A DNA stretch of 33,804 nucleotides. It comes from an uncultured Planctomyces sp. GTDB taxonomy: Bacteria > Planctomycetota > Planctomycetia > Planctomycetales > Planctomycetaceae. Under the pieces are notes generated by a model. That model saw nothing but the letters and a program-made list of their open reading frames with translations, had not been told where the DNA came from and did not search any database. The DNA lies in NCBI GenBank assembly GCA_937904325.1, contig CALGTK010000250.1, positions 1 through 33,804 on the forward strand, given 5' to 3'. A program made the position numbers and the translations under genes. Below are positions 3,361 through 25,912 of this stretch, in pieces. The number at the start of each line of letters is the position of its first letter. The stretch's first letter is position 1.

Positions 3361-3561
3361 ATCAGTGTATTTTGCGATCCTGGTAGCCAGGTTGAATGAG
3401 CGGGTTCGCGTGGGTAGAATCTCACACCTCACATGCTTCTGGTGAAGGGGTTTCTGGTCGAAAAGTTACCCCGATTTCGTCAGTAGTCACGCCGTAGTTT
3501 GGCAGAGCACGCAGCCGCAGAGAGAAGACTGGATTCTCTCTGCGATAAGGAACACAGGTTC

Positions 3562-4665
3562 ATGGTGGAGATGGTCCGGCCTGACGGCCCTGAGGAACAG
3601 CAAGACCTCATCCATCGCGCTGCGCAAACGCTTTCTGAAGGCGGACTGATTGGTCTGCCAACTGAGAGTAGTTATGTGCTCGCAGGATTGGCGAATTCAG
3701 ATCAATCAATTAAGAATTTAGACAAATACGGTCTAGGTACGGCGACGTTGCTGTCCCGGTCCGTCGAGGAAGCATTCGACTTTTTTCCGGATCTGTCTCG
3801 AATCGGAAAGAAGCTGGCTCGGCGCTGCTGGCCCGGACCAGTCATTCTGGCTTCAGACGCCGCGGCGACTTCCGGCGGACTGGTAGATTCACTCAGTCCT
3901 CAAACAAGATCGCTGCTCGGAGAAGATCGAGTCAGCGTCACTGTTTCTTCCGATTCGCTGGTGACAGAAATTGGCCGGATTCTGCCCGCACCTCTTATTG
4001 CGGTTGTCCCGGATTCTCCCGCCACTAAAGCCAGCGATATGAACGGACTGTCGGACGGCGCCGAGTTCGTCGTTGATCTTGGGGAAGTACGATTTCCCGA
4101 CGGTCCGACGGCGGTTAGCCTGACCGGTGACGAATTTGCGGTGTCCCGTGAAGGAATCGTCAGCAGTCAAAGCGTTCGTCGCATGACCGCTGATGTCATT
4201 CTGTTTGTCTGTACGGGCAACACCTGCCGCAGCCCGATGGCGGAAGCCCTGTTCCGCCAAATGCTTGCGGCTAGAATCGGTTGCAAGCCGGACGAACTTC
4301 CGGATCATGGCTACTTTGTGTCGTCGGCCGGAATCGCTGCGTCGTATGGTGCTCCTGCGAGTCCGGAATCTGCAACGCTAGCGGCGGACCGTGGTGCAGA
4401 TTTGGACAATCACGAGAGTCAGCCTTTGACCGAACGCTTGCTGAATCATGCTGATTTTGTCTACACCATGACTCGAAGCCACAGGCAGGCGATTGTGACG
4501 CGGCGGTCTGAAGTGGCTGACCGAGTCCGAGTACTGGCCAGTGATGGCGGAGACGTCCCCGATCCAATCGGAGGAGGGATGGGGGAATATGAGCGTTGTC
4601 GAGAGGCGATCGAGACACATCTCAATCAGATTCTGGCGGACTTTCCGCTACCTGATCCATCTTGA
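3562..4665 (+). CDS. YrdC-like domain fused to low-molecular-weight (arginine-type) protein phosphatase
   Basis: A 367-residue two-domain protein. Residues about 10-208 match the Sua5/YciO/YrdC fold (PTES near the start, WPGP, SREG near the end), the enzyme that makes threonylcarbamoyl-AMP for tRNA t6A. Key motifs are missing: KxRP is replaced by a GLGT stretch, the Arg before HPL is lost and TSAN is replaced by VVPD. Residues about 211-360 form a low-molecular-weight phosphatase with the P-loop CTGNTCRS (Cys217, Arg223) and the general acid in DPIGG (Asp334). Thr221 matches Thr11 of Bacillus YwlE, which selects phosphoarginine over phosphotyrosine. The order YrdC-phosphatase-rpiB equals Bacillus ywlC-ywlE-ywlF. 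Start: ATG with AAGGAA 9 nt upstream; an in-frame TTG at 3499 is the alternative. Confidence 0.9.
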   Translation: MVEMVRPDGPEEQQDLIHRAAQTLSEGGLIGLPTESSYVLAGLANSDQSIKNLDKYGLGTATLLSRSVEEAFDFFPDLSRIGKKLARRCWPGPVILASDAAATSGGLVDSLSPQTRSLLGEDRVSVTVSSDSLVTEIGRILPAPLIAVVPDSPATKASDMNGLSDGAEFVVDLGEVRFPDGPTAVSLTGDEFAVSREGIVSSQSVRRMTADVILFVCTGNTCRSPMAEALFRQMLAARIGCKPDELPDHGYFVSSAGIAASYGAPASPESATLAADRGADLDNHESQPLTERLLNHADFVYTMTRSHRQAIVTRRSEVADRVRVLASDGGDVPDPIGGGMGEYERCREAIETHLNQILADFPLPDPS

Positions 4666-10355: not shown

Positions 10356-13300
10356 ATGGGAGTAGTAAATCGTCGCGTCATGATGGTGAATGTGAACAGA
10401 TCGGTATGTGGCCAAGCATCTGCGCTGAGGATCCCTCGGTCAGCGATGGTGGATTCACCAATGGCGTTGCTGATTTTCGCAGGAACATGGCCTGCTTACT
10501 TTGTACTGGCGGTTGCTGTCTTTATTTCAGCGGCCAGTCCAGTCATTGCTCAGAAGTCTCTACCGGATTCGGCCGTCGAAGCTTCGCCGGTGTCAACCAG
10601 TGACAGGGGTGCTCCACAAGCAGAAGTTCGCCTGACAGATCCGCCAAAAGCGAATGAGCATGTCATTTTCGTTGATGAGCATGGCGAAGTGGTCAGATTG
10701 ACAGCAGGAGGTCAGATTGGCGCGTACCTTAAGTGGCGTGAGGAGCTCCTTCGCGGGACAAATGACACGGGGCCTGGCTACTACGTTGCGGCGGTGACGT
10801 TGGCTGGCGACGTAAACGCTGCTCGAACCACAGCAAAGCTGGACGCGTCAGTTGAGGTATTCGTTCGAGACGGGATTAACCAGGTCGACGTGCCGCTTCG
10901 GCTGAACGAAGCAACGTTGCTTGCGCACCGTCAAACAAAAAATGGCGATGTTGAGTTCCTGCCAACGGATCGCGGAACCGGCTTGAAGTGCCGCATCTCT
11001 GGAACCGGCCAACACAGGATTGATTTGCAGATTTCCGTACCCGTTCGGAAATCCGGTAAGTCCTACAGGATGCACCTTTCGTTGCCAGAGACAGCCCAAA
11101 GTTCGTTACGACTCGTCGTCCCCGGCGATGCATTCGCTGTCAGGTCTGAACAGCTTGCCGACATCGAAGTTGAAACGCTGCCCGATGCCCGTTCAGCCTT
11201 AATCGCGCATGGGTTGGGCGATGACCTTGATTTGCCATGGCAGGTAGTCGAGACGCAGCCAGCAGAAGAGACGTCGTTTCAAGTCGAAACATTGTTGTCT
11301 GCTGACGCTGGCGAGGACGGAGTCGCCGTCGAGGCTGTGCAAACAATTGTTGCATCCGGCGTGAGCTTTGAATCAGTAAGAGTCAACGTACCACGCGGGT
11401 GCAACGTTCTTTCAGTGAGCAGTTCGACGCACGATTCAATTGAGACGACTGATCTGCAATCGAACCCTGTCGTTATTTCTCTTCAGGAGAGCACTGCTGG
11501 ACCCTTGAAATTGAAGTGGCTGATTTCGTCGGAAGTGAAGGCGGATACGAAGTCATTCTCGATTAGTGGGTTCACTGTTGAAAACGCTGCACGAGAGGAA
11601 ACATTCTTCGGTCTTCGAGTTGCCGAAGGATTCCGTTTGAGCCAGCTAACGCCGCGACCACTGCAAGTGCAACGGATCGCGACCTCGTTGTTTCGAAAAC
11701 GAGTGGAATCGCAACTTGATCCGCAGGCCAGATTTCAGCAGGCCTATCGTCTGACAAACCGCAACGCCCGCGTACAGTTCCAAATTGAAAAGATCGAAGC
11801 AAATTATCGTGTAAGTTCCGAATACGAAATAATGTTTCGCGAAGCTTCTGCAGATTTGGAAGCGCGGTATGAAATTATCGTGTATCGGGGGACGCTGGAT
11901 CACATTCAGCTTCGGTGGCCGGAGCTTACGGCTCAGGAATGGGAACAGGTAGAGGTCATCGAACCTGCAGACCGAGTTCACATCGCGAGGCGTCTTACGG
12001 ATGTAGCCGACGTGTCTGAAACAAAGGCTGACTTTGAAACGATCAGGTTAGAGTTTGTGGAACCTATAAATCGAACTCATGGGCCAATTACCGTCAAACT
12101 TCAGGCCCGTCGTCCGGTTCCACTTGGTGAAGAATCGTTTCTGATTTCTATTCCCGTGGCTGACTCCGAATCCAAGCCTGTTTCTCGGCTAACATTGTTA
12201 AACGCGAGTAACGTCGAAAGTACATTGGAAGGTGCGCGTAATACCGCTGTCCAAATGATCTCGAGCGCTTTAGGCAACGCAGCCACAACTAAGGCTGATG
12301 GACCATTGAATCAGGTGCCACGGTACTTTGAGAGTGCATCGTCTGCCCTCGAGTTTCGAGCGACGGTGACGACTCATGCACAGAAAGTAACGGTTTCGTC
12401 ACATGCCACGCTCACGTTGTCCGATAACCTGATCAATGTTGAGCAGCGTCTCAATTATTCGGTCACTTATGAAGAGCTTGACCGACTTCAGATTCTTGTT
12501 CCAGGTTCAGTGACACCCGAAGCGTTTCGGCTCACAGGTGAGGATGGCATTTCAACAGTGCTTCTAACCGCAGAAACAGGGAAAATGGTAATTGACGGCG
12601 AGCGGCAGATTAGAGTCAACCTGCCACAACCGATCCTTGGTCTGTTTGAAATTATCTGCACGTATTCCGTTCCTGTAGATGCAGCGTTTGTCGAATCAGG
12701 AATTGGCCAATCTGACGTCCCCTTACTGCGACCGCCCGACGATGTTCCAGGTAAGTCCACACGAGTTGAGCTTCGATCGCCAGACAACGTTGGTGTCCTG
12801 GTTAGCGGAGAGCAATGGGACCAGAAACTGACGTTGAGCAGTGCTCCAACATGGGTGGCAGCAGGAATGCGCAGGAATGTTGTCCTGACCATGGAAGCCG
12901 CACCGGAACGAGCAACTCAGAACTTTGTCGTACGGCGATCTATGGTCAGGACTCGTTTTCAGAATGGCGGAGCGGTAAGGACGACATGTGTCTCGCTGAT
13001 TGACGGCGATATTTCGTTTCTTACAGTTACTTTGCCAGCTAAGACCGACCGCTCGTCCCTGAGTGTCTGGTGGGATGGCAAACCGGCGACTGCTGATAAT
13101 CTGCTGATCTCGTCGGCAGACAATGATCTCATCGAAATGCGGCTTCTTCTCGACGAGCAGATGCGTCGCAGGCAACATAGTCTTACGTTTGAGTTCGACG
13201 TCAATCAGGCTGGCAGGTTTGGCAGTATCAACGAACTCTCCGCTACGGCGCCGAGTTTTGCAGACGATGTCTGGCTCGCCGATACACTGTGGGAAGTGAT

Positions 13301-13919
13301 ACTCCCAGTTGATCAACATTTGCTCGTTTATCCTGAAAACTATACGCCTCTATTCTCGTGGCAGCGGCAAAGTTTCGCATGGAGTCGGCGACCATTTGGC
13401 GGGAGTGTTTCCCTGAATGACTGGTTGCTCACGGACAATGATTTCGAACTGGCTACGGAACTACGTAGTCAACTGAAGGACTTGCATTTAGCCCCATTGT
13501 CCGGTCCGGCTTACGGAAACAGCTACCTCTTCAGCTCTTTTGGTCATCAACGGGAAATTCGAATTCAATCCATGAGCCAGCCTGCAGTTATCCTGGCAGG
13601 CGCCGGGTTAGCCCTCGCGTTCGGGCTTGCACTGCTTCGGATTCCGGCGACCCGACATGTACTAACGATCCTCGTTGTTGGATTTGGCCTTTCACTTGTG
13701 GGGCTCTGGCACCTTGAGACCGTGCAGCTTCTTCTTCAGCCAGCCGTTTTCGGTCTACTTCTTGCATTTGTTGCATCGGTGATCGAATCGCAAATTAAAC
13801 GGCGACAGCGTGCGTCGTTAGTAACGTTTTCGTCTCCCAGTGATTTTCTCGTTCCAGGTTCTTCTCGAGAAGAAATCATTCACGACGAATCGAATGAGCG
13901 AAGTGAGCGACCTGCTTGA
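10356..13919 (+). CDS. Giant secreted, membrane-anchored beta-rich protein, unit C (1187 residues)
   Basis: I recognise no named family. A hydrophobic signal segment covers about residues 36-66 and ends SPVIAQ, a plausible signal peptidase I site. The first 35 residues are probably not translated: the ATG at codon 36 (10461) has GGTGGA 7 nt upstream, while the ATG at 10356 has no clear ribosome-binding site. Residues about 70-1070 show short alternating hydrophobic strands and very few cysteines, as in stacked beta-sandwiches. Three membrane segments follow at about 1076-1095, 1101-1120 and 1128-1144, then a charged cytoplasmic tail. Three stretches (about 501-600, 665-770 and 888-980) can be aligned by eye with both halves of the next gene. 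It starts an apparent two-gene operon. Confidence 0.85.
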   Translation: MGVVNRRVMMVNVNRSVCGQASALRIPRSAMVDSPMALLIFAGTWPAYFVLAVAVFISAASPVIAQKSLPDSAVEASPVSTSDRGAPQAEVRLTDPPKANEHVIFVDEHGEVVRLTAGGQIGAYLKWREELLRGTNDTGPGYYVAAVTLAGDVNAARTTAKLDASVEVFVRDGINQVDVPLRLNEATLLAHRQTKNGDVEFLPTDRGTGLKCRISGTGQHRIDLQISVPVRKSGKSYRMHLSLPETAQSSLRLVVPGDAFAVRSEQLADIEVETLPDARSALIAHGLGDDLDLPWQVVETQPAEETSFQVETLLSADAGEDGVAVEAVQTIVASGVSFESVRVNVPRGCNVLSVSSSTHDSIETTDLQSNPVVISLQESTAGPLKLKWLISSEVKADTKSFSISGFTVENAAREETFFGLRVAEGFRLSQLTPRPLQVQRIATSLFRKRVESQLDPQARFQQAYRLTNRNARVQFQIEKIEANYRVSSEYEIMFREASADLEARYEIIVYRGTLDHIQLRWPELTAQEWEQVEVIEPADRVHIARRLTDVADVSETKADFETIRLEFVEPINRTHGPITVKLQARRPVPLGEESFLISIPVADSESKPVSRLTLLNASNVESTLEGARNTAVQMISSALGNAATTKADGPLNQVPRYFESASSALEFRATVTTHAQKVTVSSHATLTLSDNLINVEQRLNYSVTYEELDRLQILVPGSVTPEAFRLTGEDGISTVLLTAETGKMVIDGERQIRVNLPQPILGLFEIICTYSVPVDAAFVESGIGQSDVPLLRPPDDVPGKSTRVELRSPDNVGVLVSGEQWDQKLTLSSAPTWVAAGMRRNVVLTMEAAPERATQNFVVRRSMVRTRFQNGGAVRTTCVSLIDGDISFLTVTLPAKTDRSSLSVWWDGKPATADNLLISSADNDLIEMRLLLDEQMRRRQHSLTFEFDVNQAGRFGSINELSATAPSFADDVWLADTLWEVILPVDQHLLVYPENYTPLFSWQRQSFAWSRRPFGGSVSLNDWLLTDNDFELATELRSQLKDLHLAPLSGPAYGNSYLFSSFGHQREIRIQSMSQPAVILAGAGLALAFGLALLRIPATRHVLTILVVGFGLSLVGLWHLETVQLLLQPAVFGLLLAFVASVIESQIKRRQRASLVTFSSPSDFLVPGSSREEIIHDESNERSERPA

Positions 13920-14009
13920 CGCTTCTCATTGTTGTCATGCCAACCGAAAGCAGGGTGAGGCAGCATTCGGACCATCAGAGTTTTTCTCAAGAAAAGGCGA
14001 GTTATCCCG

Positions 14010-17000
14010 GTGCTACGCGAACGCCGTCATCGACTGAATCAGGCCAGAAAGGCGAGATTGCTCACAACTGTCGTTGTCTTGAGCGCTGTTCTGCTTCACA
14101 TATTCGTTTTCGATTCAGTTGGATCGTGTGCGGAACCGAACACCGAGCGTCTCAGGCGGATGTTTGTTCCGGGCAATCGTCCAGAACTATGGCCGCAAGG
14201 CGATTGGGTACCGGTTCGTCCTGAGCAACTCGACATGCTGATGAAGTCTGCCATGGCTTCGTCCAGTGAAATCGACCGCTTTTCATTTACCTCAGCTCTT
14301 TATGAGGCGAGTTTTAACGTAAAGACTGCACACTTCGAGCAGGGCACGGCGACACTCTTTCGAGTCCGCGACGAAGCAGAAGTTACTCCGTTTGAACCTT
14401 GTAACCTGTGGCTGTCAAACGCTTGTTGGGGCAACGAGGACACTGAACGACCTGCGATTCTCGGGACGGGCCTGGACAACGTGCAACGGCTTGTGATGCC
14501 TGAAACCGCTCATGAACTGAGATTCGACTGGCGACTTGAAGGGCAGAAACGACTGACAGGATACGACTTCGATTTTAATGTTCCACGATCTGTCGTCACG
14601 TCGTTTCGTTTGTTTGTTCCTTCAGGATGGCAGGTGACGTCCAATACGGGAATCGTCCAACTGGATAAAGTTGACCTGCAGTCCCAGAAACAAAGTCGCG
14701 ATAGAGCTTCTTTGGTTGCTTGGCGCGTGCAACTCGGTCATGCGAATGTCTGTAGAATTCGAGTTCACCAGCCGACTGACGAAGATAGACGCGGACGGGG
14801 CGTTAGTTCGTATCGTTTGAATTCGCGATGCCAGTTGCAGTCGGAATCGCTTGAGCAGTCTTTCGAGTTCAGCTTTGATTCGATGTCGACAGACAGCAAC
14901 GAAATTACCATCGCAATACCTCCGGCTTTGATTGTGTCGTCTATTGAAGACGAGCTTGGCAGGGCCTTCTCATGGCGTGACGCTGGACCACGGTCAGATA
15001 AGTGGCATGCCTTACGTATCAACCTGGCAGGCGACAAAAAAGAAGACCTTTCACGAGTAACGATCCGCGGTCGGCAATCCGTCCCGTTGCCGGGTTCTGG
15101 CTACCTTCAGTTCAGGATAGAACCACCACGACCGGACAAAGCGGTTTTGCTGGGAGGCAACGCCAGTCCATTCAGCGTAGCTATTGAATCACCATTTCAG
15201 GTGGCAACATATTCTTCCGACGGACTCCGTCAAACGGCCACATCGGTGGACGACGACAGGCATGAACTTGCCTTTGAGCAATATGCATCTCGGTCATTTC
15301 TCAACTTGCAGATTCGAAATACGGGAAGGAAGTCGTTGCAAAGGATTTCCGTCCGTGAGTATTCATTGCTCAATGTCGGAACAATTCCGCAGGAACTCGA
15401 TGTACTGCTGGAGTTGACGTCACAGGCTCAAGGTGCGTTCGAATCGATCTGGCTGGTTCCATCCGAATGGGAAGTGACTGCCGTGGTCTCGGTGACTCCG
15501 ACAGGCACAGCGGTGTCCTCGTCTGAGGATGTATCCTGGAACATCAAACGACAGTCTGAGAACTTCCAGCGACTCACCATTGATCTTGCCGACGGGTTAC
15601 CGGTCAGAGAACTATTGAGACTGCGGGTTATCGGGCAGCGCGCAGATCAAAGCCGTCAGTCTGAATTTCAGGTGCCAGTGATCCTGCCGGAAGCAACGAG
15701 ATCAGCAGCCATCGCATTCGGTGTGGTGGGCTGTGATGACCCGGAAGACGTGCAACTTACATCAGACGACTACCGACGGTATGCGGAACCGGAAATGTTT
15801 ACAGAGTCAGACTGGTCAGACCTGATTGCTGTGTTCGGAGAAGTGCCACAGGCTGTTTGGACTGCCGACAATTGGATGTCGAGGGGGCAAATAGAAAAAG
15901 CGATGTTGCATTTCCCCGGTGACATGTTTGCCCCGGTCGGTTCATCGCCGGTTCAATCGGACACGACAATCCCGAGAATTAATCAGCCATACGACAATAA
16001 CGATATGGATAAATTTAACGGATCGCTGTCGGAACTCCCTCACGAAGCTGAAGAAAACGACCGAGCGTCAGAAACGCAACATCAGGTAGGGTTGACGACT
16101 CAACGCGTAATCGTAAGCGCCGAGTTCGATTCACAGTTGTCGCCCGGTTCGGGCAGTCGCGATTTGCATCGGTTTACCTGGAGATTTCACTATTCATCAG
16201 AAGCGTCGCCATTCCGATTTCGATTGCCTGTGAATTCCGAACCACTTGCGGTTATGTGGAGAGGGCAAAAGATTGCACCGGTTCGCGACGGAAGCGATTG
16301 GATTATTCCACTCACGGTTGTCAGTGCAAGCGATGAATTGTCGATTGAATACACGTTGCCATCACAGGCTGTCTATCTACGAGAAACATATCGCTGCCGC
16401 ATTCCTGTTGCGGAGGCCACAGTCGTTCAGTTTAACTGGAATATTCGGATTCGCGATCAGTTCTCAGTCGTGTCATTTGCTTCGGGATTGACTCCGGACG
16501 ATGAACCTCACCGTGGAAACTGGTTGAGCTGGTGTTTCGGTCCGCTCGCCCGAAGTGCTTCTTCGAAGGTCTTTAACCCAGTTGGTCTTGGGTCATGGGT
16601 GCGGTTTTTGAAGGGACGTGGCACTCAGATTGCGGCTCCAACCGCATCAAGATCAACTGATTGGAAGACGTTTTCGGCTTCTTCTACCGGCATCCCCGAT
16701 TCACTGGCTGTTCATGTTTGTGATCATTCCAGACTGTACGCTCTTGCATGGTTTGTCTTGACGCTAAGTTTGCTGGTTGGTGTGCTGTTGCGTACAGTCG
16801 CCGTACCACTTCGCAGTCGGTTCACCTTGGTTTGGCTAAGTGGGTGCGTTGCTTCGGTTGCGCTCGTGCCAGACGCCTACGCTGAACTGGTCGGAGGGTG
16901 CGCGCTGGGTAGCATCCTGGCGACGCTTCTTCCAAGAAGCTTCGTACGACCAGTGAAACTTAGCAAATCAGACGCCGCTCAAGTCAGCATAGCATCGACG

Positions 17001-20000
17001 ATAACGCGGCGTTTTGTGTCTGGTTCGGTCATTCTAGCGGTATCAGCACTGGCTGGTTCGGCGATCGCACAGCAGCGTACTGCAGAGCAGCGCCGCTTTG
17101 AAATTGATGTTCTGGTCCCGTATGCCGAAACCCCATTTTACAGCAATCATGTGCCGTCCTACGTTTACATTCGAAGTCGCGATCTTCAGATACTGTCGGA
17201 CACTGAGGCGATTGATGAAGATAAAACGCCCGACTATCTTCTGACCGAAAGTGACTGGACGATCCGGGTTACTGAATCTGGCCGCGCCGAGATCGTAGCG
17301 ATGATCATCGTTGCGTCGCACCGTGATGACGGCAGCGAAATTGAGATTCCGATTCCTGCGAGGTTCCTTGCTGGACAGACTGAGTGTTCGGTAAACGGCA
17401 GGCGTGTTGGAGTGCTGCCAAACGCTGATGGTTCACGCCTCCGCGTTCCGCTGCCTGATGTGTTGCATGAGGCAATTTCGGTTGGACCGGGCGAAACACC
17501 AGTACCACCTCCAATCGCTGAGTCGGTCAATCAGTGGCGTGAATACAAGATTGAACTGGGGTTACGCCCGTTGACGCAACGCTCACAGAACGTCGCGCGA
17601 ATCTCGCTCCCGATTCCCGCGATCTCAAATTCACGTGTGTCACTATCATTTGATCAGAGGCCGCAAATTTGTTTCTCCAGCCGATCGCAGACCTCAAGAG
17701 AACTGACCACAAATGGAACAGCAGACTTTATCCTTGGCCCGACGAACGATTTGACGATCAGTTGGAGCCAGACGATCGCCAAACTCACGCTCGGCCGAAC
17801 GCCAGCCGAACAGCCGGCTGTTGAAATCAGGTCGTCGGTTGATGTTCATCCCAACTGGATGGAACACCTAACTCATGCGAGGTACATCGTTGACGGTCAG
17901 AACGTGCGATACATTGAGTGGGCGTTGCCTGAATTGTGCCAGGTTGACCTTACTCAATTTCGTATACGGAACCTGGTTGACAAGTCATTGCGCCGTGAAG
18001 CGGGAAAGATGCTCTTAACATGTGAGTTTGATCCGCCGGTCAATCAATCATTCGATTTCGAATTTCGATGGCGGCAGATGCAGCATGAATCGAGGAACGA
18101 TTCAGCAGTTGTCTGGGCTATTCCGGTTGTTCCAGATCAGATCGATGTTCCACTGACCGTTACTTCCCACGTTGCCGGGCTTACGCCGGAGGCCGGCTTC
18201 CAGTTTTCTCCGCAGGTGCAGAATCCAGCATCAACTTCTTACATCGCTGGTAGCGATTTCATCAAGATGTGGCCGGAGAATGAACGTCCACGCGTTCCGT
18301 TAGTTGCACTACGAGTTTTGGAACAACCAGTAGTAAATGCTGCCCTTATTCCGGCGAAGTCGCAACGGACAACACGCGTCATCCAGGTTGCCAGAATTCG
18401 TCCATCGGGAATTCATTGGACGGTTTCGGCGGAAGTTGATACGGCAGTTGTCCCTGCATTCGCTCATGAATTTCTTCTTAATCAGTCATTCCGCGTTGAC
18501 TCAGTAAACGTTTTCGAAGACGACGTTGACCGATTGAGCCATTGGGACCATGTAAACGGTAAGCTGACTTTACATCTTCAAGATCGGCGGTCTGGCGTTC
18601 AAAATATCACGATCACCGGCCAGCAGGCAATTGCTACAGGTAGTGATGCCGTAAAGTTGCCGCTCCTTAAGACCGTGGCCGGTGAGAACGCAGAATCAAC
18701 TCTTTTGATCTACCGATCGAATGAACTTCAGGTTTCGATTGAAGGCCCCGATCCTCTTACCGATGATCAAGCAGTCGCAACAACGAACCGGACTCGAGAG
18801 GAGTTCGTTGGACGTTTTCGGATCCTTCCTGAACAGGAAGCAGAAGTCAGAATTGAGCAGATTGCAAACACTCCAATCGCGTGGATTGTCGCTGACGTTA
18901 CGTCGGACGCCGTTGGAGAGTGTTTCGTTTCTGCAACGATCCATCTTCATAAGATGTCGAAGAGAAATCTGAAGGTCGAATTACCAGAATGGGCTGCGGC
19001 GGGGGAGCTCGCAGTGATGCCAGGCAGGAATGGCCCCAGTGTGACCCAGAATATTTCAATCGATCAGCGGTCGATCGACGTGCAGCTTCCACGACCGGTT
19101 CCGCGGCACGTTGAAATTGTATTGACGGCAAGGTTTCTACCACGGATAGGTCAATCGATTCGTCTATTACCGCCGACCATCGAAGACATTAAGCAGCAGT
19201 ACGCAGTGTTAACTCTTTCACAAGGAATGGATGAGTGGGAACTCCTTCCTCGCGATACTCCAAGTGAGCTCCATTTGAAAACATTGCGAGAGTTTGCGCC
19301 AGGACTTGCAGACAGCAGTCAAGATCTTGTCGTTTGGCAGGACTCAACGAAAGTCAGTCCAACAGCGTCTTCATTGGTTCTGGACGGTCTACCGACCCTT
19401 GTAGTTCATTCAATTCGTCCAGGCGTTCGGCAAAGCGGCGTAGCGGAAACGAACATCCTGCTTCAGACAGATCGCCGTCACGCGAGATTGCAATGGCCTG
19501 CGAGTCTTAGATTGATATCTGCCCGAATTGACGGAGAAGTCGAAGATGTCTCGCCCTCTGTTGATGGCACATTACAGTTGCCATTTACCCAGAGCGGGCC
19601 AGTACATGCCGTTGAGTTACTATGGAATATGGAGCAGGACTCGCAAGCAATGAAAATCCAACGGCGAACAATGCCGATACCTCGACTGATTGATGCGGGA
19701 GGTGCCCGTTCCTTTGTTATCGCAATGCCTACACGCCGAATTCGACTGATTTCAACAGGCAAATCGCAAGCATGGACCAGTGGCGAAGCCGTGAGAATTT
19801 CCAACCAGTGGCTTGGAGCGGTGAATCGAAGTTCGCACTCTTCGGCAAGTTTCGGAGTCGCGCAACAGATCGTTGAATTACTTGTGTTTACTGATGTTGA
19901 CGCAAACCAGCAACGCGGAAGTCGGACAATTTCTGATGCAGCCGCAAATCTTCTCCTCGCAGATCAATCTGGCAGGAAAACCGCAGACAGTAGCAACATG

Positions 20001-20309
20001 ATCGTCGAACAGATCGGCGAAGCCCAAGTGGAATTCTGGGTTGTTGATACCCAGGTGGACCGAATCCTGAGCAGTATACTCATTGCGATCATCGCCATCC
20101 CCGCCTTCATCGTTCTTCTCAAACTTGAGATTGGCGACAGGATTGCACAACGTCCCGAATGGTGCTGGCTTACACTTGGACTGATCTGGTGGCTGTGCCT
20201 GAAAGGGAGTGGTGCCGGATTCATACTGGGGACTGTGTCCGTATTATGGATCGCGGTTGCCCATTTCGTCCGCCGCCGTTCTGAACTCGTTGTGTTGAGC
20301 AGCCAGTGA
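14010..20309 (+). CDS. Giant double-unit secreted membrane protein, units A and B (2099 residues)
   Basis: I recognise no named family. The N terminus is a good signal peptide: Arg-rich start, hydrophobic core at about 17-34, then SVGSCA before Glu-Pro. Unit A runs to about 980 and ends in three hydrophobic segments (about 909-930, 937-955 and 958-975) plus basic residues. Unit B opens with a second signal-like segment at about 1000-1020 ending GSAIAQ, followed by about 1000 residues of beta-rich sequence and three membrane segments (about 2020-2040, 2050-2065 and 2070-2087) ending in RRR. An even number of membrane spans between the units would put both ectodomains outside the cytoplasm. Unit B aligns by eye with the whole preceding protein. 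The GTG start lies 90 nt after that gene and has a weak ribosome-binding site. The frame is unbroken across the junction. Confidence 0.87.
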   Translation: MLRERRHRLNQARKARLLTTVVVLSAVLLHIFVFDSVGSCAEPNTERLRRMFVPGNRPELWPQGDWVPVRPEQLDMLMKSAMASSSEIDRFSFTSALYEASFNVKTAHFEQGTATLFRVRDEAEVTPFEPCNLWLSNACWGNEDTERPAILGTGLDNVQRLVMPETAHELRFDWRLEGQKRLTGYDFDFNVPRSVVTSFRLFVPSGWQVTSNTGIVQLDKVDLQSQKQSRDRASLVAWRVQLGHANVCRIRVHQPTDEDRRGRGVSSYRLNSRCQLQSESLEQSFEFSFDSMSTDSNEITIAIPPALIVSSIEDELGRAFSWRDAGPRSDKWHALRINLAGDKKEDLSRVTIRGRQSVPLPGSGYLQFRIEPPRPDKAVLLGGNASPFSVAIESPFQVATYSSDGLRQTATSVDDDRHELAFEQYASRSFLNLQIRNTGRKSLQRISVREYSLLNVGTIPQELDVLLELTSQAQGAFESIWLVPSEWEVTAVVSVTPTGTAVSSSEDVSWNIKRQSENFQRLTIDLADGLPVRELLRLRVIGQRADQSRQSEFQVPVILPEATRSAAIAFGVVGCDDPEDVQLTSDDYRRYAEPEMFTESDWSDLIAVFGEVPQAVWTADNWMSRGQIEKAMLHFPGDMFAPVGSSPVQSDTTIPRINQPYDNNDMDKFNGSLSELPHEAEENDRASETQHQVGLTTQRVIVSAEFDSQLSPGSGSRDLHRFTWRFHYSSEASPFRFRLPVNSEPLAVMWRGQKIAPVRDGSDWIIPLTVVSASDELSIEYTLPSQAVYLRETYRCRIPVAEATVVQFNWNIRIRDQFSVVSFASGLTPDDEPHRGNWLSWCFGPLARSASSKVFNPVGLGSWVRFLKGRGTQIAAPTASRSTDWKTFSASSTGIPDSLAVHVCDHSRLYALAWFVLTLSLLVGVLLRTVAVPLRSRFTLVWLSGCVASVALVPDAYAELVGGCALGSILATLLPRSFVRPVKLSKSDAAQVSIASTITRRFVSGSVILAVSALAGSAIAQQRTAEQRRFEIDVLVPYAETPFYSNHVPSYVYIRSRDLQILSDTEAIDEDKTPDYLLTESDWTIRVTESGRAEIVAMIIVASHRDDGSEIEIPIPARFLAGQTECSVNGRRVGVLPNADGSRLRVPLPDVLHEAISVGPGETPVPPPIAESVNQWREYKIELGLRPLTQRSQNVARISLPIPAISNSRVSLSFDQRPQICFSSRSQTSRELTTNGTADFILGPTNDLTISWSQTIAKLTLGRTPAEQPAVEIRSSVDVHPNWMEHLTHARYIVDGQNVRYIEWALPELCQVDLTQFRIRNLVDKSLRREAGKMLLTCEFDPPVNQSFDFEFRWRQMQHESRNDSAVVWAIPVVPDQIDVPLTVTSHVAGLTPEAGFQFSPQVQNPASTSYIAGSDFIKMWPENERPRVPLVALRVLEQPVVNAALIPAKSQRTTRVIQVARIRPSGIHWTVSAEVDTAVVPAFAHEFLLNQSFRVDSVNVFEDDVDRLSHWDHVNGKLTLHLQDRRSGVQNITITGQQAIATGSDAVKLPLLKTVAGENAESTLLIYRSNELQVSIEGPDPLTDDQAVATTNRTREEFVGRFRILPEQEAEVRIEQIANTPIAWIVADVTSDAVGECFVSATIHLHKMSKRNLKVELPEWAAAGELAVMPGRNGPSVTQNISIDQRSIDVQLPRPVPRHVEIVLTARFLPRIGQSIRLLPPTIEDIKQQYAVLTLSQGMDEWELLPRDTPSELHLKTLREFAPGLADSSQDLVVWQDSTKVSPTASSLVLDGLPTLVVHSIRPGVRQSGVAETNILLQTDRRHARLQWPASLRLISARIDGEVEDVSPSVDGTLQLPFTQSGPVHAVELLWNMEQDSQAMKIQRRTMPIPRLIDAGGARSFVIAMPTRRIRLISTGKSQAWTSGEAVRISNQWLGAVNRSSHSSASFGVAQQIVELLVFTDVDANQQRGSRTISDAAANLLLADQSGRKTADSSNMIVEQIGEAQVEFWVVDTQVDRILSSILIAIIAIPAFIVLLKLEIGDRIAQRPEWCWLTLGLIWWLCLKGSGAGFILGTVSVLWIAVAHFVRRRSELVVLSSQ

Positions 20310-20341: not shown

Positions 20342-21709
20342 TCAAGCGAGTTCCGGTATGTGTTCGCCATAAGAGATGTGGATCGGCCGTCCGGCCTGGT
20401 CGTTGAATGTCTGGCGGTAGTCGATTCCCAGGTGGTGCAGGATCATTGACCGGAAGTTCTGCGGAGTCAGTTCGCGTTTGATGGGGTGCTCGCCTTTGGA
20501 GTTGGTCGCACCGATGACCTGGCCCGTTCGTGTACCGCCACCGGAGACCAGGATTGACATTGCGTGTGGCCAATGATCGCGGCCCCAGTTGATCTTGCCG
20601 TCTCGATTTCCTGGACGTTCGTTACCACGGGGGGTACGGCCGAATTCGCCCGTCACGATGACCATGACGTCTTCATCGAGCCCCCTTTCGTAGATGTCTT
20701 CAATAAGAGCCGTCACTCCCTGGTCGACGCCGGGCAGGCGTTCGCGCATCGCGGTGGGCAGGTCACCGTTGACTGCGTGGTCGTCCCAGTTATAGACCTC
20801 TTTTCCGCCGGGAATGCTGACTGTTACAAGGTTTACTCCGGCTTCAACGAGTCGTCGAGCGAGCAACGCCTGTTGAGCCCAGCCTTCGCCGTAACGCTCG
20901 CGAATTTTTTCGTCTTCCTGGGAAAGGTCGAAGGCGATACGGGCTCGGTCGGTGGTCAGTATTTCGAACGCCTGCTGATTAAAGCCGTCGAGAGATACCA
21001 TGACGCCGCTGTCCAGGTCTCCCCGAAGACGATCGACGCTGGTCAGCAGTTCTTTGCGATTACTCAGTCTTTGGCCGTCGATCGTGGCCTTTGCGTTCTT
21101 TAGCCCCTTTTCGCTGACGGTCGGCGGGCGGAAGACATCACTCCAGTAGCCCGTCGCGGTTGTGGGCACGTAGCTGTAATGCGTTGCTCCCATTCCACAG
21201 GCGACAGGCATGCCACCGTGGCACTGGCCGAAGACTCGACTGACGACGGCTCCAAGTTCCGGATGGACGGATTCGTGTTTGGACTCGTCCCAGTCGGGGT
21301 AGCCGCTCATCATTACCGGGATGCCGTCATTGTGGCCGGCGTAGTTGTGTGAGCACGATCGGATGAGCGAAAACCTGTCGGCAATCTTTGCGTGCATCGG
21401 CAGCAGTTCGCAGATATCCATTCCTGACACGTTCGTGTTAATTGGCGAAAACGGGCCGCGGATTTCTCGCGTCGCATTCGGCTTTAAATCGTACGTTTCA
21501 AGATGGCTTGGACCACCGTTCTGCCAGAGCAGAATTACAGATTTTGGAGACGGAGACCTCCGATATTCTGAAGCGGGGGATGCCTGAGACTGCAGACGCA
21601 GATAATCCGCCAGAGTTAACCCTCCGATACCCAGAAAGCCGGCCCGCATGAAGTGGCGCCGTGAGATTCCATCGCACAGTTGATGACGGTTGGTCAGGAC
21701 TTCGAGCAT
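20342..21709 (-). CDS. Tat-exported DUF1501 protein (first copy)
   Basis: A 455-residue DUF1501 protein, a family related to the alkaline phosphatase/sulfatase fold and very expanded in planctomycetes; no substrate is established. The N terminus carries a twin-arginine motif (SRRHF, Arg17-Arg18) before a hydrophobic stretch, so it is probably exported folded. The hallmark motifs are LLWQNGGPSHLETYD at about 60-74, GEFGRTPR at about 352-359 and GRDHWP with ILVSGGG at about 373-388. It is convergent with the giant gene, with 32 nt between stops, and lies 137 nt downstream of a second DUF1501 gene on the same strand. The usual DUF1549/DUF1553 cytochrome partner is absent. Confidence 0.93.
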   Translation of the reverse strand: MLEVLTNRHQLCDGISRRHFMRAGFLGIGGLTLADYLRLQSQASPASEYRRSPSPKSVILLWQNGGPSHLETYDLKPNATREIRGPFSPINTNVSGMDICELLPMHAKIADRFSLIRSCSHNYAGHNDGIPVMMSGYPDWDESKHESVHPELGAVVSRVFGQCHGGMPVACGMGATHYSYVPTTATGYWSDVFRPPTVSEKGLKNAKATIDGQRLSNRKELLTSVDRLRGDLDSGVMVSLDGFNQQAFEILTTDRARIAFDLSQEDEKIRERYGEGWAQQALLARRLVEAGVNLVTVSIPGGKEVYNWDDHAVNGDLPTAMRERLPGVDQGVTALIEDIYERGLDEDVMVIVTGEFGRTPRGNERPGNRDGKINWGRDHWPHAMSILVSGGGTRTGQVIGATNSKGEHPIKRELTPQNFRSMILHHLGIDYRQTFNDQAGRPIHISYGEHIPELA

Positions 21710-21846
21710 GTTATCTATCCATGATCAGACAAAATTCGCCACAAAGAACACAGCCGCCACAGAGAGTACAGCGGTCACTTGGTTGCTCGTGTCAGGCGTT
21801 TGCTGTGACCTGATTCTGTCTTAATTTCATTTCGAATTAATCGCGA

Positions 21847-23217
21847 TTAGCTTAGCTCGGCAATCGGCTTACCAAATGGAAGGATGGGCATCGGACGACC
21901 AGCTGCGTCGATGAATTCCGCTCGGTAATCGATTCCCAGATGTTGATACATCGTTGCCAGCAGATCGTTCGGATCCAGCTTGTTGTCTTTGGCGTACGCG
22001 CCGTTCGAAGTCGTCGAGCCGATCACCTGCCCCATTCGCATGCCGCCACCGGAAACGAGGATTGACATCGAACCGGGCCAATGATCGCGACCTGGCTGAA
22101 TGACTCCGGAACGTGTCCCTTTTTGAGGGTTGATTCGAGGCGTACGACCGAACTCGCCGGTGACTACCAGCATGACTTTTTTGTCGAGACCTCGTTGATA
22201 GAGATCTTCAACCAGTGCGGCTATGGCGCGGTCGAAGATTGGCAGTCGGGCTCTAGTGTCGTCAAAGAGGTGTCCGTTGACCGCGTGGATGTCCCAATTG
22301 CCGATTGCGTTTGGAACTCCTGGATTCTGCATTTGCATCGTAACGAACGTGACTCCTGCCTCAACGAGCCGACGAGCCAGCAACGCTCGCTGTCCCCATT
22401 TGTGCCGTCCGTATTTCTCTCGAGTCTCTGGATCTTCGCTTGAGATATCGAAGGCCTGCTTCGCACGGTCGCTGGTGAGCAGGCTGATTGCTCTGCCATT
22501 GAATTCGTCGATCGATGCCAACGAGCCAGAGCGGTCGATATCACGCTGCATATCGTCGAAAGATTTAAGCAGGGCGACGCGATCATCCAGTCGGTCTTTC
22601 AGGCTGCCAGACATGGCCAGGTTCGGTACCGAAAAGTTGTCTTCGTTGGGGTCTCGCGCGACGACGAAAGGCAATTCGGATTCACCCAGGTAAGAACTGC
22701 CTCCGCCGTAGACTCGATTGGCACTGCCAACGTAGTTGGGCACTCCGATATCGTGCGACTTTTTTATACGGCTGACCACAGTGCCGATCGTTGGAAACTG
22801 CGCGATCGGATCGAGTGGACGTAGCGGGTCGCGGCCGGAAAGGAACCGTCCAGCGCCACCAGCGTGATTGGCGAAGCCGTGAGAGATCGAGCGGATGATT
22901 GTGAACTTGTCGGCAACCTTCGAGTGCATCGGCAGCAGTTCGCAGACATCCATTCCAGCCACATTCGAGTTGATCGGATTCATTTCGCCGCGGTAATCCA
23001 GTGGAGCGTCGGGCTTTAAATCGTAGGTCTCCATATGGCTGGGGCCGCCCTGCAGCCAGATCAGTATTATCGACGTGTCCTGTCCTGTTTCGTTCTTTGC
23101 TGCTGTGCGCAAACGAAGAAGGTCGCTGAGACCAAGTCCACCGAGTGCCAGAAAACCGGCCTGCAGAAAGCTACGGCGCGATTGCGGGTCTGGGCCGTGC
23201 GTTGTTTGACGTGGCAT
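21847..23217 (-). CDS. Tat-exported DUF1501 protein (second copy)
   Basis: A 456-residue DUF1501 protein with the twin-arginine motif SRRSFL (Arg14-Arg15) and hydrophobic core GFLALGGLGLSDLL. It shares with the first copy the order WLQGGPSHMETYD, CELLPMHSKVADKF, RALLARRLVEAGV, GEFGRTPR (about 352-359) and GRDHWP (about 374-379), so the two are clear tandem paralogues; the middle third, about 100-260, is the most divergent. It is transcribed towards the first copy and diverges from the third, with 221 nt between starts. The biochemical role is unknown. Confidence 0.93.
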   Translation of the reverse strand: MPRQTTHGPDPQSRRSFLQAGFLALGGLGLSDLLRLRTAAKNETGQDTSIILIWLQGGPSHMETYDLKPDAPLDYRGEMNPINSNVAGMDVCELLPMHSKVADKFTIIRSISHGFANHAGGAGRFLSGRDPLRPLDPIAQFPTIGTVVSRIKKSHDIGVPNYVGSANRVYGGGSSYLGESELPFVVARDPNEDNFSVPNLAMSGSLKDRLDDRVALLKSFDDMQRDIDRSGSLASIDEFNGRAISLLTSDRAKQAFDISSEDPETREKYGRHKWGQRALLARRLVEAGVTFVTMQMQNPGVPNAIGNWDIHAVNGHLFDDTRARLPIFDRAIAALVEDLYQRGLDKKVMLVVTGEFGRTPRINPQKGTRSGVIQPGRDHWPGSMSILVSGGGMRMGQVIGSTTSNGAYAKDNKLDPNDLLATMYQHLGIDYRAEFIDAAGRPMPILPFGKPIAELS

Positions 23218-23438
23218 GAAAATAATCCTGCACGCGGCGGGAAGGTATGGAAGGTTGTAGGATCGGTGGGGATTTTCCTGACGGAAATACTGGACGTCTA
23301 TTGTCGCAAAGTAGTGTCGTCAGATTCAACATCGGCAGGCTGGTTGGAGTGCACTCACATAATCTTGACGTCGTAGCCGCACATTTGTGATCGCTTGAAT
23401 CGTTAAGTCGTGCTAATCTGGTCAGACGGCAGGACGAG

Positions 23439-24845
23439 GTGAATAGTAATTCTGGACGAACAACAGCAGCAGGGTTTTGGTCGATGTTTCGAGTGGCGGG
23501 TGGCACAACTTCAGGCGGTGCGGATTTAACGAGACGTAGCTTCGTAGAAGCAGGCGTGCTTGGCGTTGGTGGGATCTCGCTGGCACAGATGATGTCGCTG
23601 CGTGCAGAGTCCGCGACATCGACGACCGGAACGTCTGACACGAGCGTGATCCTGGTCTGGATGAGCGGCGGACCGGGTCATCATGAAACGTGGGATCCAA
23701 AGCCGGATGCGGTCAGTCAGTACCGCGGACCTTTCGGAGCGATCTCGACCAACGTCAGCGGAATTCAGTTCAGCGAAATGCTGCCCGAACAGGCGAAGAT
23801 CGCTGATCGCATTTCGGTTTTAAGAACTATTCGGCATCGGTCTGGTGATCACACCAAGGGTAATCACTGGATGTTGACAGGCTTCGAAGGCCCAGACTTC
23901 AACAAGCCGGACAATAAAATTCAGCGGCGTCCATCGATGGGGGCGGTCGCGTCAGCGTTGTGCGGGACGCGGCGATCTGGCATGCCGGCGTACTCCGCCG
24001 TTCCACACTTGAAGGGCGGTACTGATAACCTCTTTCACTACGCGGCGTACCTCGGCGGTGCACACAACCCGCTGGTAACGAACTCCGACCCGAACGGGAA
24101 ATTGTTCGGCGTTGCGGATCTTTCGCTTCGGTCCGGCCTGACGTTCGATCGGTTGAACGATCGCCGTTCGCTCTTGAAAATGATCGATCAGTATCGTCGA
24201 CGAGCTGACGGCGGCATGGTCGACATGAGCGATCAGCAACAGTCAGCGTTCAGCCTGTTGACCGGCTCGGTTGTTCGAGAAGCCTACGACATGACACAGG
24301 AGCCGGACGCGATTCGCGACGACTATGGCAGACATACTTTCGGCCAGAGCGCATTGCTGGCACGTCGTCTTGTCGAACGCGGCGTTACGTTTGTGACGGT
24401 TAACACTCAGCCGTGGGATCATCACGGAACTGCAAATCGCTTGCCCACTGAAAAGGGCGCAAAGCAACTGATCCCGCCTGTCGATCGAGCAATCGCAGCG
24501 CTGATCCGCGACCTTGTTGAACGAGGTATGTTTGAAAAGACGCTCATTGTCGCAATGGGTGAATTCGGACGCACGCCAAAGATGAACGATGCTGCCGGCC
24601 GCGATCACTGGGGACACACATTCAGTGTTATGATGAGCGGGGGCTCTTTCCGCATGGGTCAGGCGATTGGCGTCTCAGATGATCGAGGAGCCTACGTCGC
24701 CGAACGACCACTCAGCCCTGAAGATGTCACCGCGACGGTGTATCACCACCTTGGCCTCGACGCTCGCAACACGGCGATCCCAGACCGCACCGGTCGCCCA
24801 CGATATCTCGTCGAACATGGTGAGCCGATTCGCGAATTATTGTAG
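23439..24845 (+). CDS. Tat-exported DUF1501 protein (third copy, divergent)
   Basis: A 468-residue DUF1501 protein on the opposite strand from the other two. Tat motif TRRSFV (Arg32-Arg33) comes after an unusually long polar leader of about 30 residues. Family motifs are present with changes: WMSGGPGHHETWD, GEFGRTPK at about 374-381 and GRDHWGH at about 387-393. The GTG start has AGGACGAG directly upstream; the ATG at codon 16 (23484) is an alternative that would still keep the Tat motif. It belongs to a different subgroup from the two minus-strand copies, so simple recent triplication is unlikely. The broken cytochrome gene lies downstream on the same strand. Confidence 0.92.
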   Translation: MNSNSGRTTAAGFWSMFRVAGGTTSGGADLTRRSFVEAGVLGVGGISLAQMMSLRAESATSTTGTSDTSVILVWMSGGPGHHETWDPKPDAVSQYRGPFGAISTNVSGIQFSEMLPEQAKIADRISVLRTIRHRSGDHTKGNHWMLTGFEGPDFNKPDNKIQRRPSMGAVASALCGTRRSGMPAYSAVPHLKGGTDNLFHYAAYLGGAHNPLVTNSDPNGKLFGVADLSLRSGLTFDRLNDRRSLLKMIDQYRRRADGGMVDMSDQQQSAFSLLTGSVVREAYDMTQEPDAIRDDYGRHTFGQSALLARRLVERGVTFVTVNTQPWDHHGTANRLPTEKGAKQLIPPVDRAIAALIRDLVERGMFEKTLIVAMGEFGRTPKMNDAAGRDHWGHTFSVMMSGGSFRMGQAIGVSDDRGAYVAERPLSPEDVTATVYHHLGLDARNTAIPDRTGRPRYLVEHGEPIRELL

Positions 24846-25111
24846 TCGAAATTGCAGGCTCAAATTCAGTCTTTCGACATCGTTACGGTGCAGAACCCCA
24901 TCTTTCCGTGTCCACCCCCAGCGAGCGAAATTCTGAGTTGTGATTTGAACTCGACCGTTGTCTTCCTGTGCTGATGATCGCTTCGTTGTGCTCGCCTGTA
25001 ACTGGCCAGGTTTCAAAAGATTCATCTTGAAATCACCGCCGCAATCGGGCGTTGTTTGCTCAGCGAGTATTTGCGGCGTGTCACGCAGTCGGTGGGGGAA
25101 TTTCCGCGTAG
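24846..25111. other. Unassigned stretch downstream of the third DUF1501 gene
   Basis: About 270 nt without a recognisable gene. A minus-strand frame covers it and runs into the DUF1501 gene at 24837; its text contains a coherent-looking stretch (ITTQNFARWGWTRKDGVLHR) but matches no family I know. Together with the broken gene that follows it reads as decayed sequence. Confidence 0.4.
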
Positions 25112-25690
25112 GGGGCCCGATTTGTCGAAGCCATAGAATGGCAAGCCTCTGACTGTCACTACCTTGGAGAATCATCGCGACAAACTGCCAGTCTGGCGGT
25201 TGCCGATTCTGACGCTCGCGTAAAACTTACGGCGATTCGAATTTGCGAACCGTTGCTGGCGGACGACCTGGAGCTCATTCAAACCGTTAGTGAAGCTGGG
25301 TACCACGGCGACATGACTGTCGTCGTGCAGGTCATCAAGTCGCTGCATTTTTCCAGGACGAAGGAAACGCAGGTCGCTATCTCGGCGGAGCAACGTTCGC
25401 CAATTTTAGTGCCGGCATGATCGCCAGGATACAACAAGGTTACAGGTCCTGAACGATGGTCTGCATCCGTTTTCACGGCCCCGACGCAAAGGGGGGGGCG
25501 ATTTCCCGCGATGGCCTGCAACTGGTGTCCTCAATGGTGGGTTCGCCACGTCTACTGGGGCCTCCGGAAGTTTCGGCGAAAATTCTCATACACGGCCTGA
25601 CGGGGCCGATTGACGGAAAAAAATATCCTGGCGTCATGGAGTCGATGAAACGGCAGGACGACGAGTGGATGGCAGCGGTGTTGACTGTTT
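25112..25690 (+). pseudogene. Broken planctomycete HEAT-repeat / cytochrome c protein
   Basis: Two pieces in different frames belong to one former gene. From 25187 to 25420 the text VADSDARVKLTAIRICEPLL and what follows has the pattern of the HEAT repeats that precede the haem domain in planctomycete membrane-bound dehydrogenase-like proteins. From about 25390 the next frame reads ARIQQGYRS, a TGA at 25450-25452, then CIRFHGPDAKG and HGLTGPIDGKKYPGVM to DDEWMAAVL near 25685, which is the PVC-type cytochrome c domain. At least one frameshift, one internal stop and loss of the second haem cysteine (CIRFH in place of CxxCH) show the gene is dead. The N-terminal propeller part of such proteins is missing upstream. 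Confidence 0.72.
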
Positions 25691-25912
25691 TTTGTATTTT
25701 CAGACCGGAGCAACGAAACGCAATTTCAGGTCAATCCATGTGTTATCGATCTCTGGGCGGGAAGCTGTTTCTGCCGGGCAAGATCCCCGCGACATCGGAT
25801 AACCCACCTGCAACCAGACTACAGACAACTGCCGAGTGATGATTCGTGTCAGGTAAGAATTCGTTGCCGGCAAGCATTGCTGGCGTGTCGGTCGCGTGCG
25901 GCTGCACGATGA

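Follow-up and report, generated by a model that had tools for sequence, protein, structure and literature searches.

Two adjacent planctomycete genes encode three homologous membrane-anchored arrays of predicted beta-saddle domains

Introduction

What do two adjacent genes without a recognised sequence family contribute to the planctomycete cell? The genes lie in a 33,804-nucleotide stretch of DNA (here called the window) from an uncultured Planctomyces sp., contig CALGTK010000250.1. The first encodes a single unit, C. The second encodes a longer protein, AB, with two halves, A and B. A first-pass annotation, made by eye, proposed that C, A and B are three copies of one giant, membrane-anchored, beta-rich unit. 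The envelopes of planctomycetes are unusual; their peptidoglycan and division genes are largely dispensable, and Planctopirus limnophila has many essential phylum-specific genes of unknown function (PMC10632474). The gene set described here takes up 10 kb per copy and is nearly universal in its class, with neither a Pfam or NCBIfam family nor an assigned function. Our computational analysis established the architecture and homology of the units, their repeats, predicted fold, conservation and operon links. From these we infer what the units may do.

Results

C, A and B are homologous

Two open reading frames (ORFs) on the same strand were confirmed:

10356..13919, + strand: gene C, encoding the 1187-residue unit C (ORF; hydrophobic segments; AlphaFold2 model)
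14010..20309, + strand: gene AB, encoding a 2099-residue protein made up of units A and B (ORF; AB-type conserved in relatives)

Profiles of each unit were prepared from ortholog alignments of relatives' loci (24 each). All three pairs matched significantly over nearly their full length. Profile-profile comparison gave 99.5% for A-B (E 3.5e-22, 734 columns), 99.8% for A-C (E 1.7e-29, 847 columns, extending through the membrane segments) and 99.9% for B-C (E 2.2e-33, 790 columns). Reversed-profile controls did not exceed 11%. Furthermore, a profile of C alone matched both halves of many AB proteins in other genomes, at about 1e-40 to 1e-70. Pairwise identity is low (13% in the B-C alignment), as might be expected if beta-rich secreted proteins had merely converged in composition, but the collinear full-length matches, the negative reversed controls and the direct C-profile matches on A and B refute that idea, to which we give practically no weight. 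Hence, the homology of C, A and B extends over almost their entire length, as had been proposed, and we are all but certain of their tandem, triplicated, membrane-anchored architecture. When the closing membrane modules were compared alone, A-C scored 93.8% and B-C a weaker 63%; A-B similarity was not detectable by profile comparison over this short module alone.

The proposal had cited motif pairs matched by eye. Two of these, the VNLPQP/VQLPRP segments and the closing DG turns of C and B, coincide when B and C are aligned. The ARY/WPEL match (C 501-600 with B ~1290-1370) is displaced by one repeat, a consequence of the tandem of related domains within each unit. The proposed membrane plan stands for C, with its signal segment and three closing segments, and the A model has three membrane helices; for B, hydropathy indicates two or three.

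Each unit is a tandem array of predicted beta domains

Comparison of each profile with itself gave off-diagonal matches for C (E 2.4e-15 over 626 columns), B (E 6.9e-11) and A (E 8.8e-9), with a repeat shift of about 165-185 residues. The AlphaFold2 model of C (38 sequences; mean predicted local distance difference test score, pLDDT, 77; predicted template modelling score, pTM, 0.44) contains five all-beta domains beginning near residues 142, 307, 472, 656 and 858. These are followed by juxtamembrane helices, a hairpin and three membrane helices. The AlphaFold2 model of A (35 sequences; pLDDT 76, pTM 0.39) has four beta domains, with residues 638-698 forming a low-confidence linker, and closes with the module seen in C. 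In both models most individual domains are confident and their mutual arrangement is not. With C cut into five domains (D1-D5) according to its model, profile comparison linked D2-D3 (98.1%), D3-D4 (97.4%), D4-D5 (96%), D2-D4 (95.8%) and D1-D3 (80%). Each unit is thus a tandem array, with predicted beta domains of 120-190 residues numbering five in C and four in A. The C product runs from a signal segment through five tandem beta-saddle-like domains and three closing membrane helices to a basic tail. Residue conservation is low, with mean column identity of 22% in C and 17% in A. The predicted parts are as follows:

10494..10553, + strand: C signal segment (hydrophobic, residues 47-65), with a signal-peptidase-I-like VIA|Q motif in which Q66 is nearly invariant
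10779..11246, + strand: C domain 1, residues 142-297 (predicted strands; profile link to D3)
11274..11753, + strand: C domain 2, residues 307-466 (links to D3 and D4)
11769..12260, + strand: C domain 3, residues 472-635 (link to D4)
12321..12899, + strand: C domain 4, residues 656-848 (model matches the LTA4H/ERAP1/IRAP N-domain, Z ~13, root-mean-square deviation (rmsd) 3.8 over ~163 residues)
12927..13394, + strand: C domain 5, residues 858-1013, bearing the closing W-DG turn (modelled D4-D5 pair matches Ost1/RPN1)
13410..13814, + strand: C juxtamembrane helices, beta hairpin and three membrane helices, residues 1019-1153 (model, hydrophobicity; homologous to the A module)
14058..14114, + strand: A N-terminal signal segment, residues 17-35 (hydrophobic)
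14286..16478, + strand: A array, putatively periplasmic, of four predicted beta domains, residues 93-253, 266-437, 446-634 and 701-823 (model)
16521..16946, + strand: A juxtamembrane helices, hairpin and three membrane helices, residues 838-979 (model; module comparison)
17226..19769, + strand: B array, putatively periplasmic, residues 1073-1920, five domains read from the alignment to C (hhalign B-C 99.8-99.9%)
20064..20270, + strand: B closing membrane segments, residues 2019-2087 (hydrophobic)

The predicted domains resemble beta-saddles

The models were compared with known structures. Using Foldseek against the PDB, ribophorin I/Ost1 ranked first for both C (E 1.6e-11) and A (8e-7). M1 aminopeptidases and glycosylphosphatidylinositol-transamidase subunits ranked lower. 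Matches to integrin, complement and alpha-2-macroglobulin had very low TM-scores and were judged generic to tandem beta proteins. With a second aligner, both models matched Ost1/RPN1 at Z 14 over ~310 residues, equivalent to two consecutive domains, with an rmsd of ~16 A. Therefore, the two domains match in order but in a different mutual orientation. M1 N-domains matched at Z 12-13 with an rmsd of 3.2-4 A over 150-165 residues. The M1-N-like regions are C 676-848, A 262-436 and A 695-905; the Ost1-like region is A 87-443. As modelled, the M1-N-like regions thus have the beta-saddle fold of the M1 aminopeptidase N-terminal domain.

Ribophorin I (RPN1, PF04597), a subunit of eukaryotic oligosaccharyltransferase, has a signal peptide, consecutive non-cytoplasmic saddle-like beta domains and a C-terminal membrane anchor, a plan that the units would share as modelled. 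The differences are that ribophorin I is eukaryotic, has two domains rather than four or five, places them differently and has one anchor helix where the membrane module of the units has about three. The N-terminal beta-saddle of M1 (LTA4H, ERAP1, PepN; PF17900) and M61 proteins matches as a single-domain fold, once in C and twice in A. Unlike the M1 N-domain, the units carry tandem copies, have no attached catalytic domain and share no sequence similarity with it. BatD and alpha-2-macroglobulin-type proteins are periplasmic multi-domain proteins with a signal peptide, tandem beta domains and a membrane anchor. They resemble the units in this general plan. No Pfam match to BatD was found for C, AB or 38 C orthologs, and none to alpha-2-macroglobulin for C or AB.

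Searches of Pfam (which also covered 38 C orthologs and 13 AB orthologs from second copies), NCBIfam (0 matches for C, AB and the paralogous pair described below) and the PDB assigned C and AB to no sequence family. Weak matches to DUF7139, TgpA_N and gB/insulin receptor were judged to be chance. Ribophorin_I was not matched in any of 40 relatives, the window's own genome included, at E<=1, nor by C or AB in Pfam. Against a 16-sequence planctomycete M1_N alignment, no domain or unit scored above 0.4% probability in hhalign. No Pfam peptidase match indicated the catalytic zinc-peptidase domain of an M1 aminopeptidase in C or AB. Hence, while the modelled resemblance to M1_N and ribophorin I is clear, we do not claim membership of either family, because these sequence-level tests were negative. 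In the literature, which we covered incompletely, we found neither these proteins described nor an operon combining polysaddle genes with a von Willebrand A (VWA) anti-sigma gene. As no sequence family and no paper were found, we consider the family and system new; the domain fold itself is already known. The first-pass view of a single unrecognised unit of 900-1000 residues is thus altered. It was right that sequence libraries hold no such family. The unit comprises four or five smaller domains, and its fold is recognisable by structure comparison.

AB is probably processed into A and B

In many AB proteins, the region separating the final membrane segment of A from the first B domain contains a basic stretch, a short hydrophobic one and a motif resembling a signal peptidase I site. 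In the window the sequence is SALAGSAIA|QQR:

17007..17069, + strand: internal signal peptide at the A|B junction, residues 1000-1020, with a putative signal peptidase I site, AIA|Q, after residue 1020

Of 46 AB proteins, 28 have the motif [AVSTLIGC]x[AG]Q after the junction segment, compared with 29/360 other hydrophobic segments (odds ratio 17.8, P 7e-16). At two loci (L118 and L119) the same units are encoded by three separate consecutive genes, each product opening with a signal-like segment. Because of this conserved internal signal peptide and the separate A and B genes of some lineages, AB is probably cut into two proteins.

The gene set is old and nearly universal in Planctomycetia

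The gene pair proved near-universal in class Planctomycetia when planctomycete genomes were surveyed. The C profile detected the system in 58/59 relatives across the class, and in 50/51 of good quality. Across Planctomycetota, 60/148 genomes matched; the 34 strong matches outside the class are patchy. A scan of genome contigs identified the same gene pair in three close relatives only, recorded as Planctomycetaceae or Planctomyces sp. AB-type proteins of relatives are ~1870-2900 residues long. On a tree of 87 units, the label C, A or B changes 5 times, compared with ~42 times if labels are shuffled. Hence, the set of three units is older than most of the diversity sampled.

In most mapped loci C precedes AB. 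In the window, AB starts with GTG, 90 bp past the C stop codon. At 30/68 gene junctions a start codon is possible within a 4-bp stop/start overlap, which suggests translational coupling and matched amounts of the products.

The window's family usually has a second set (type II), with a larger AB of ~2700 residues; the window copy is type I. In the window's genome the second, paralogous set is at L106 5503-18985 (G000:C200) and encodes C' (1256 residues) and AB' (2710 residues). Separately, second-copy AB proteins at L074, L079, L069 and L089 have ~220-320 additional residues midway along AB', placed between membrane segments; this stretch matched no Pfam family.

In some other lineages the units adjoin a VWA anti-sigma gene, with a sigma gene at five loci

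At nine loci, from eight families outside the class, a VWA/YfbK gene lies directly before the units (L122, L124, L125, L147, L148, L152, L158, L159 and L164). Coordinates place it likewise in two more genomes, G161 and G171. The total is 11/34 strongly matching genomes outside the class. Most linked VWA proteins begin with a zf-HC2-like region, have a single membrane segment around residue 100-170 and contain a VWA domain whose metal-site motif, DxSxS, is intact. Pfam zf-HC2 matches were obtained at L124, L158 and L159, and the L147 protein is cut at its start. An extracytoplasmic function (ECF) sigma gene precedes the VWA gene at L124, L125, L148, L158 and L159. It was not detected there at L152 or L164, and at L147 and L122 the sequence ends too early to show it. 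At L148 all four genes are present with 4-bp overlaps. This module, a YfbK-type VWA and zf-HC2 anti-sigma fusion with an ECF sigma factor, is an operon neighbour of the units and is not homologous to them.

At L106, an ECF sigma gene, a small single-pass anti-sigma-like gene, C' and AB' are consecutive on one strand. A common sigma/anti-sigma pair was not found by phmmer and Pfam scans of the flanks of the other type II loci examined. Therefore, we make no general claim about type II regulation. The window's own locus has no linked regulator.

Two further neighbours recur. An inositol monophosphatase gene lies directly upstream of C, on the same strand and 70-520 bp away, in 14 type I loci (for example L070 3610-4383). 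Undecaprenyl-pyrophosphate phosphatase (BacA) neighbours the units in four loci. Neither points to a mechanism.

Discussion

The favoured explanation is that C, A and B are paralogs seated in the inner membrane by C-terminal hydrophobic modules. Each would display a periplasmic array of four or five M1-N/ribophorin-like beta-saddle domains, with its tail in the cytoplasm. Signal peptidase I would cut AB, and C, A and B would then assemble into a single periplasmic scaffold-receptor complex. Where the sigma-VWA module is linked, its VWA protein may bind or monitor this complex. On envelope change it would release the sigma factor, so adjusting production of the complex. For the window copy we assume a mainly structural role, with regulation from elsewhere, because the regulatory genes are not in the window operon. 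The first-pass annotation had suggested a structural or receptor role at the membrane, and the units may indeed have either. Operons with an anti-sigma/VWA protein in other lineages make the proposed link to envelope sensing more specific. As a whole, we give this reading, an inner-membrane/periplasmic scaffold-receptor complex tied to envelope sensing, roughly even odds (about 0.5). More tentative, at somewhat less than even odds, is its fullest form: a planctomycete envelope machine in which signal peptidase matures two of three ancient polysaddle paralogs from one polyprotein, and in which, in many lineages, an ECF sigma factor senses the state of the periplasmic complex that the three form, via a transmembrane anti-sigma protein with a periplasmic VWA domain.

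Several observations weigh against this explanation. Global confidence of the models is low, so that they fix neither domain arrangement nor assembly; they cover C and A, and the domain count of B is taken from its alignment to C. The junction motif occurs in no more than 28 of the 46 AB proteins, and its statistic counts related sequences as independent. Linkage to the sigma-VWA module is confined to 11 of the 34 strongly matching genomes outside the class and is absent at the window locus. The window's genome does encode a stand-alone ECF sigma factor and membrane-anchored VWA/YfbK pair, but this is unlinked to the unit genes (L171 8112-12276, G000:C209).

The units could instead be purely structural struts: a load-bearing periplasmic scaffold from the inner membrane to outer layers, without signalling, where sigma-VWA genes elsewhere merely time expression. 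Large size, tandem arrays and near-universality fit such a strut. So do the lack of enzyme motifs found in the units and the many Planctomycetaceae loci, a majority, with no linked regulator. The close operon link to an anti-sigma/VWA protein, recurring in eight families, argues the other way, and we consider a purely structural role possible though doubtful. M1/M61 N-domains contribute to substrate binding in peptidases. Given the fold match and the link to a VWA anti-sigma gene, saddle surfaces might therefore bind an extracellular or periplasmic ligand, such as a polysaccharide or peptide, with the VWA anti-sigma protein relaying the signal. The low conservation of C and A, with no obvious conserved binding site, makes this ligand receptor or adhesin unlikely. 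Less likely still is a ribophorin-I-like accessory that positions a lipid-linked-sugar transferase or translocon partner, as RPN1 does in oligosaccharyltransferase. Both models have ribophorin I/Ost1 as their best PDB match, across two consecutive domains, and BacA is a neighbour at four loci, but PF04597 was unmatched in the 40 relatives, the two-domain arrangement differs and no glycosyltransferase was recognised as a recurrent neighbour.

As a candidate envelope system the gene set is concrete and testable: a partner module (the ECF sigma/VWA anti-sigma pair) and a processing site are both predicted. The predicted domain fold recalls part of a eukaryotic protein-glycosylation complex. This resemblance to ribophorin I bears on the old debate over eukaryote-like features of planctomycetes; at present it is a similarity of fold only.

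Other features of the window

A scan for promoters and terminators found sites no more numerous than in shuffled sequence. The upstream neighbours of gene C are ordinary: a kinase, a CAAX protease, a Sua5-LMW phosphatase fusion, two glycine-decarboxylase subunits and DUF218. The fusion is one ORF (3499-4665) joining a Sua5/YrdC domain to a low-molecular-weight (LMW) phosphotyrosine phosphatase domain. Downstream of AB are three adjacent DUF1501 genes (20342-24845), two on the - strand and one on the +; DUF1501-like genes are also close to the unit genes at several other loci. Beyond these, 24944-25832 holds a broken gene remnant, seen as four tblastn fragments with 51-80% identity, several containing stops. 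Its intact counterpart, at the same place in the relative L063, encodes 1295 residues with cytochrome c, DUF7133 and F5/8 type C domains.

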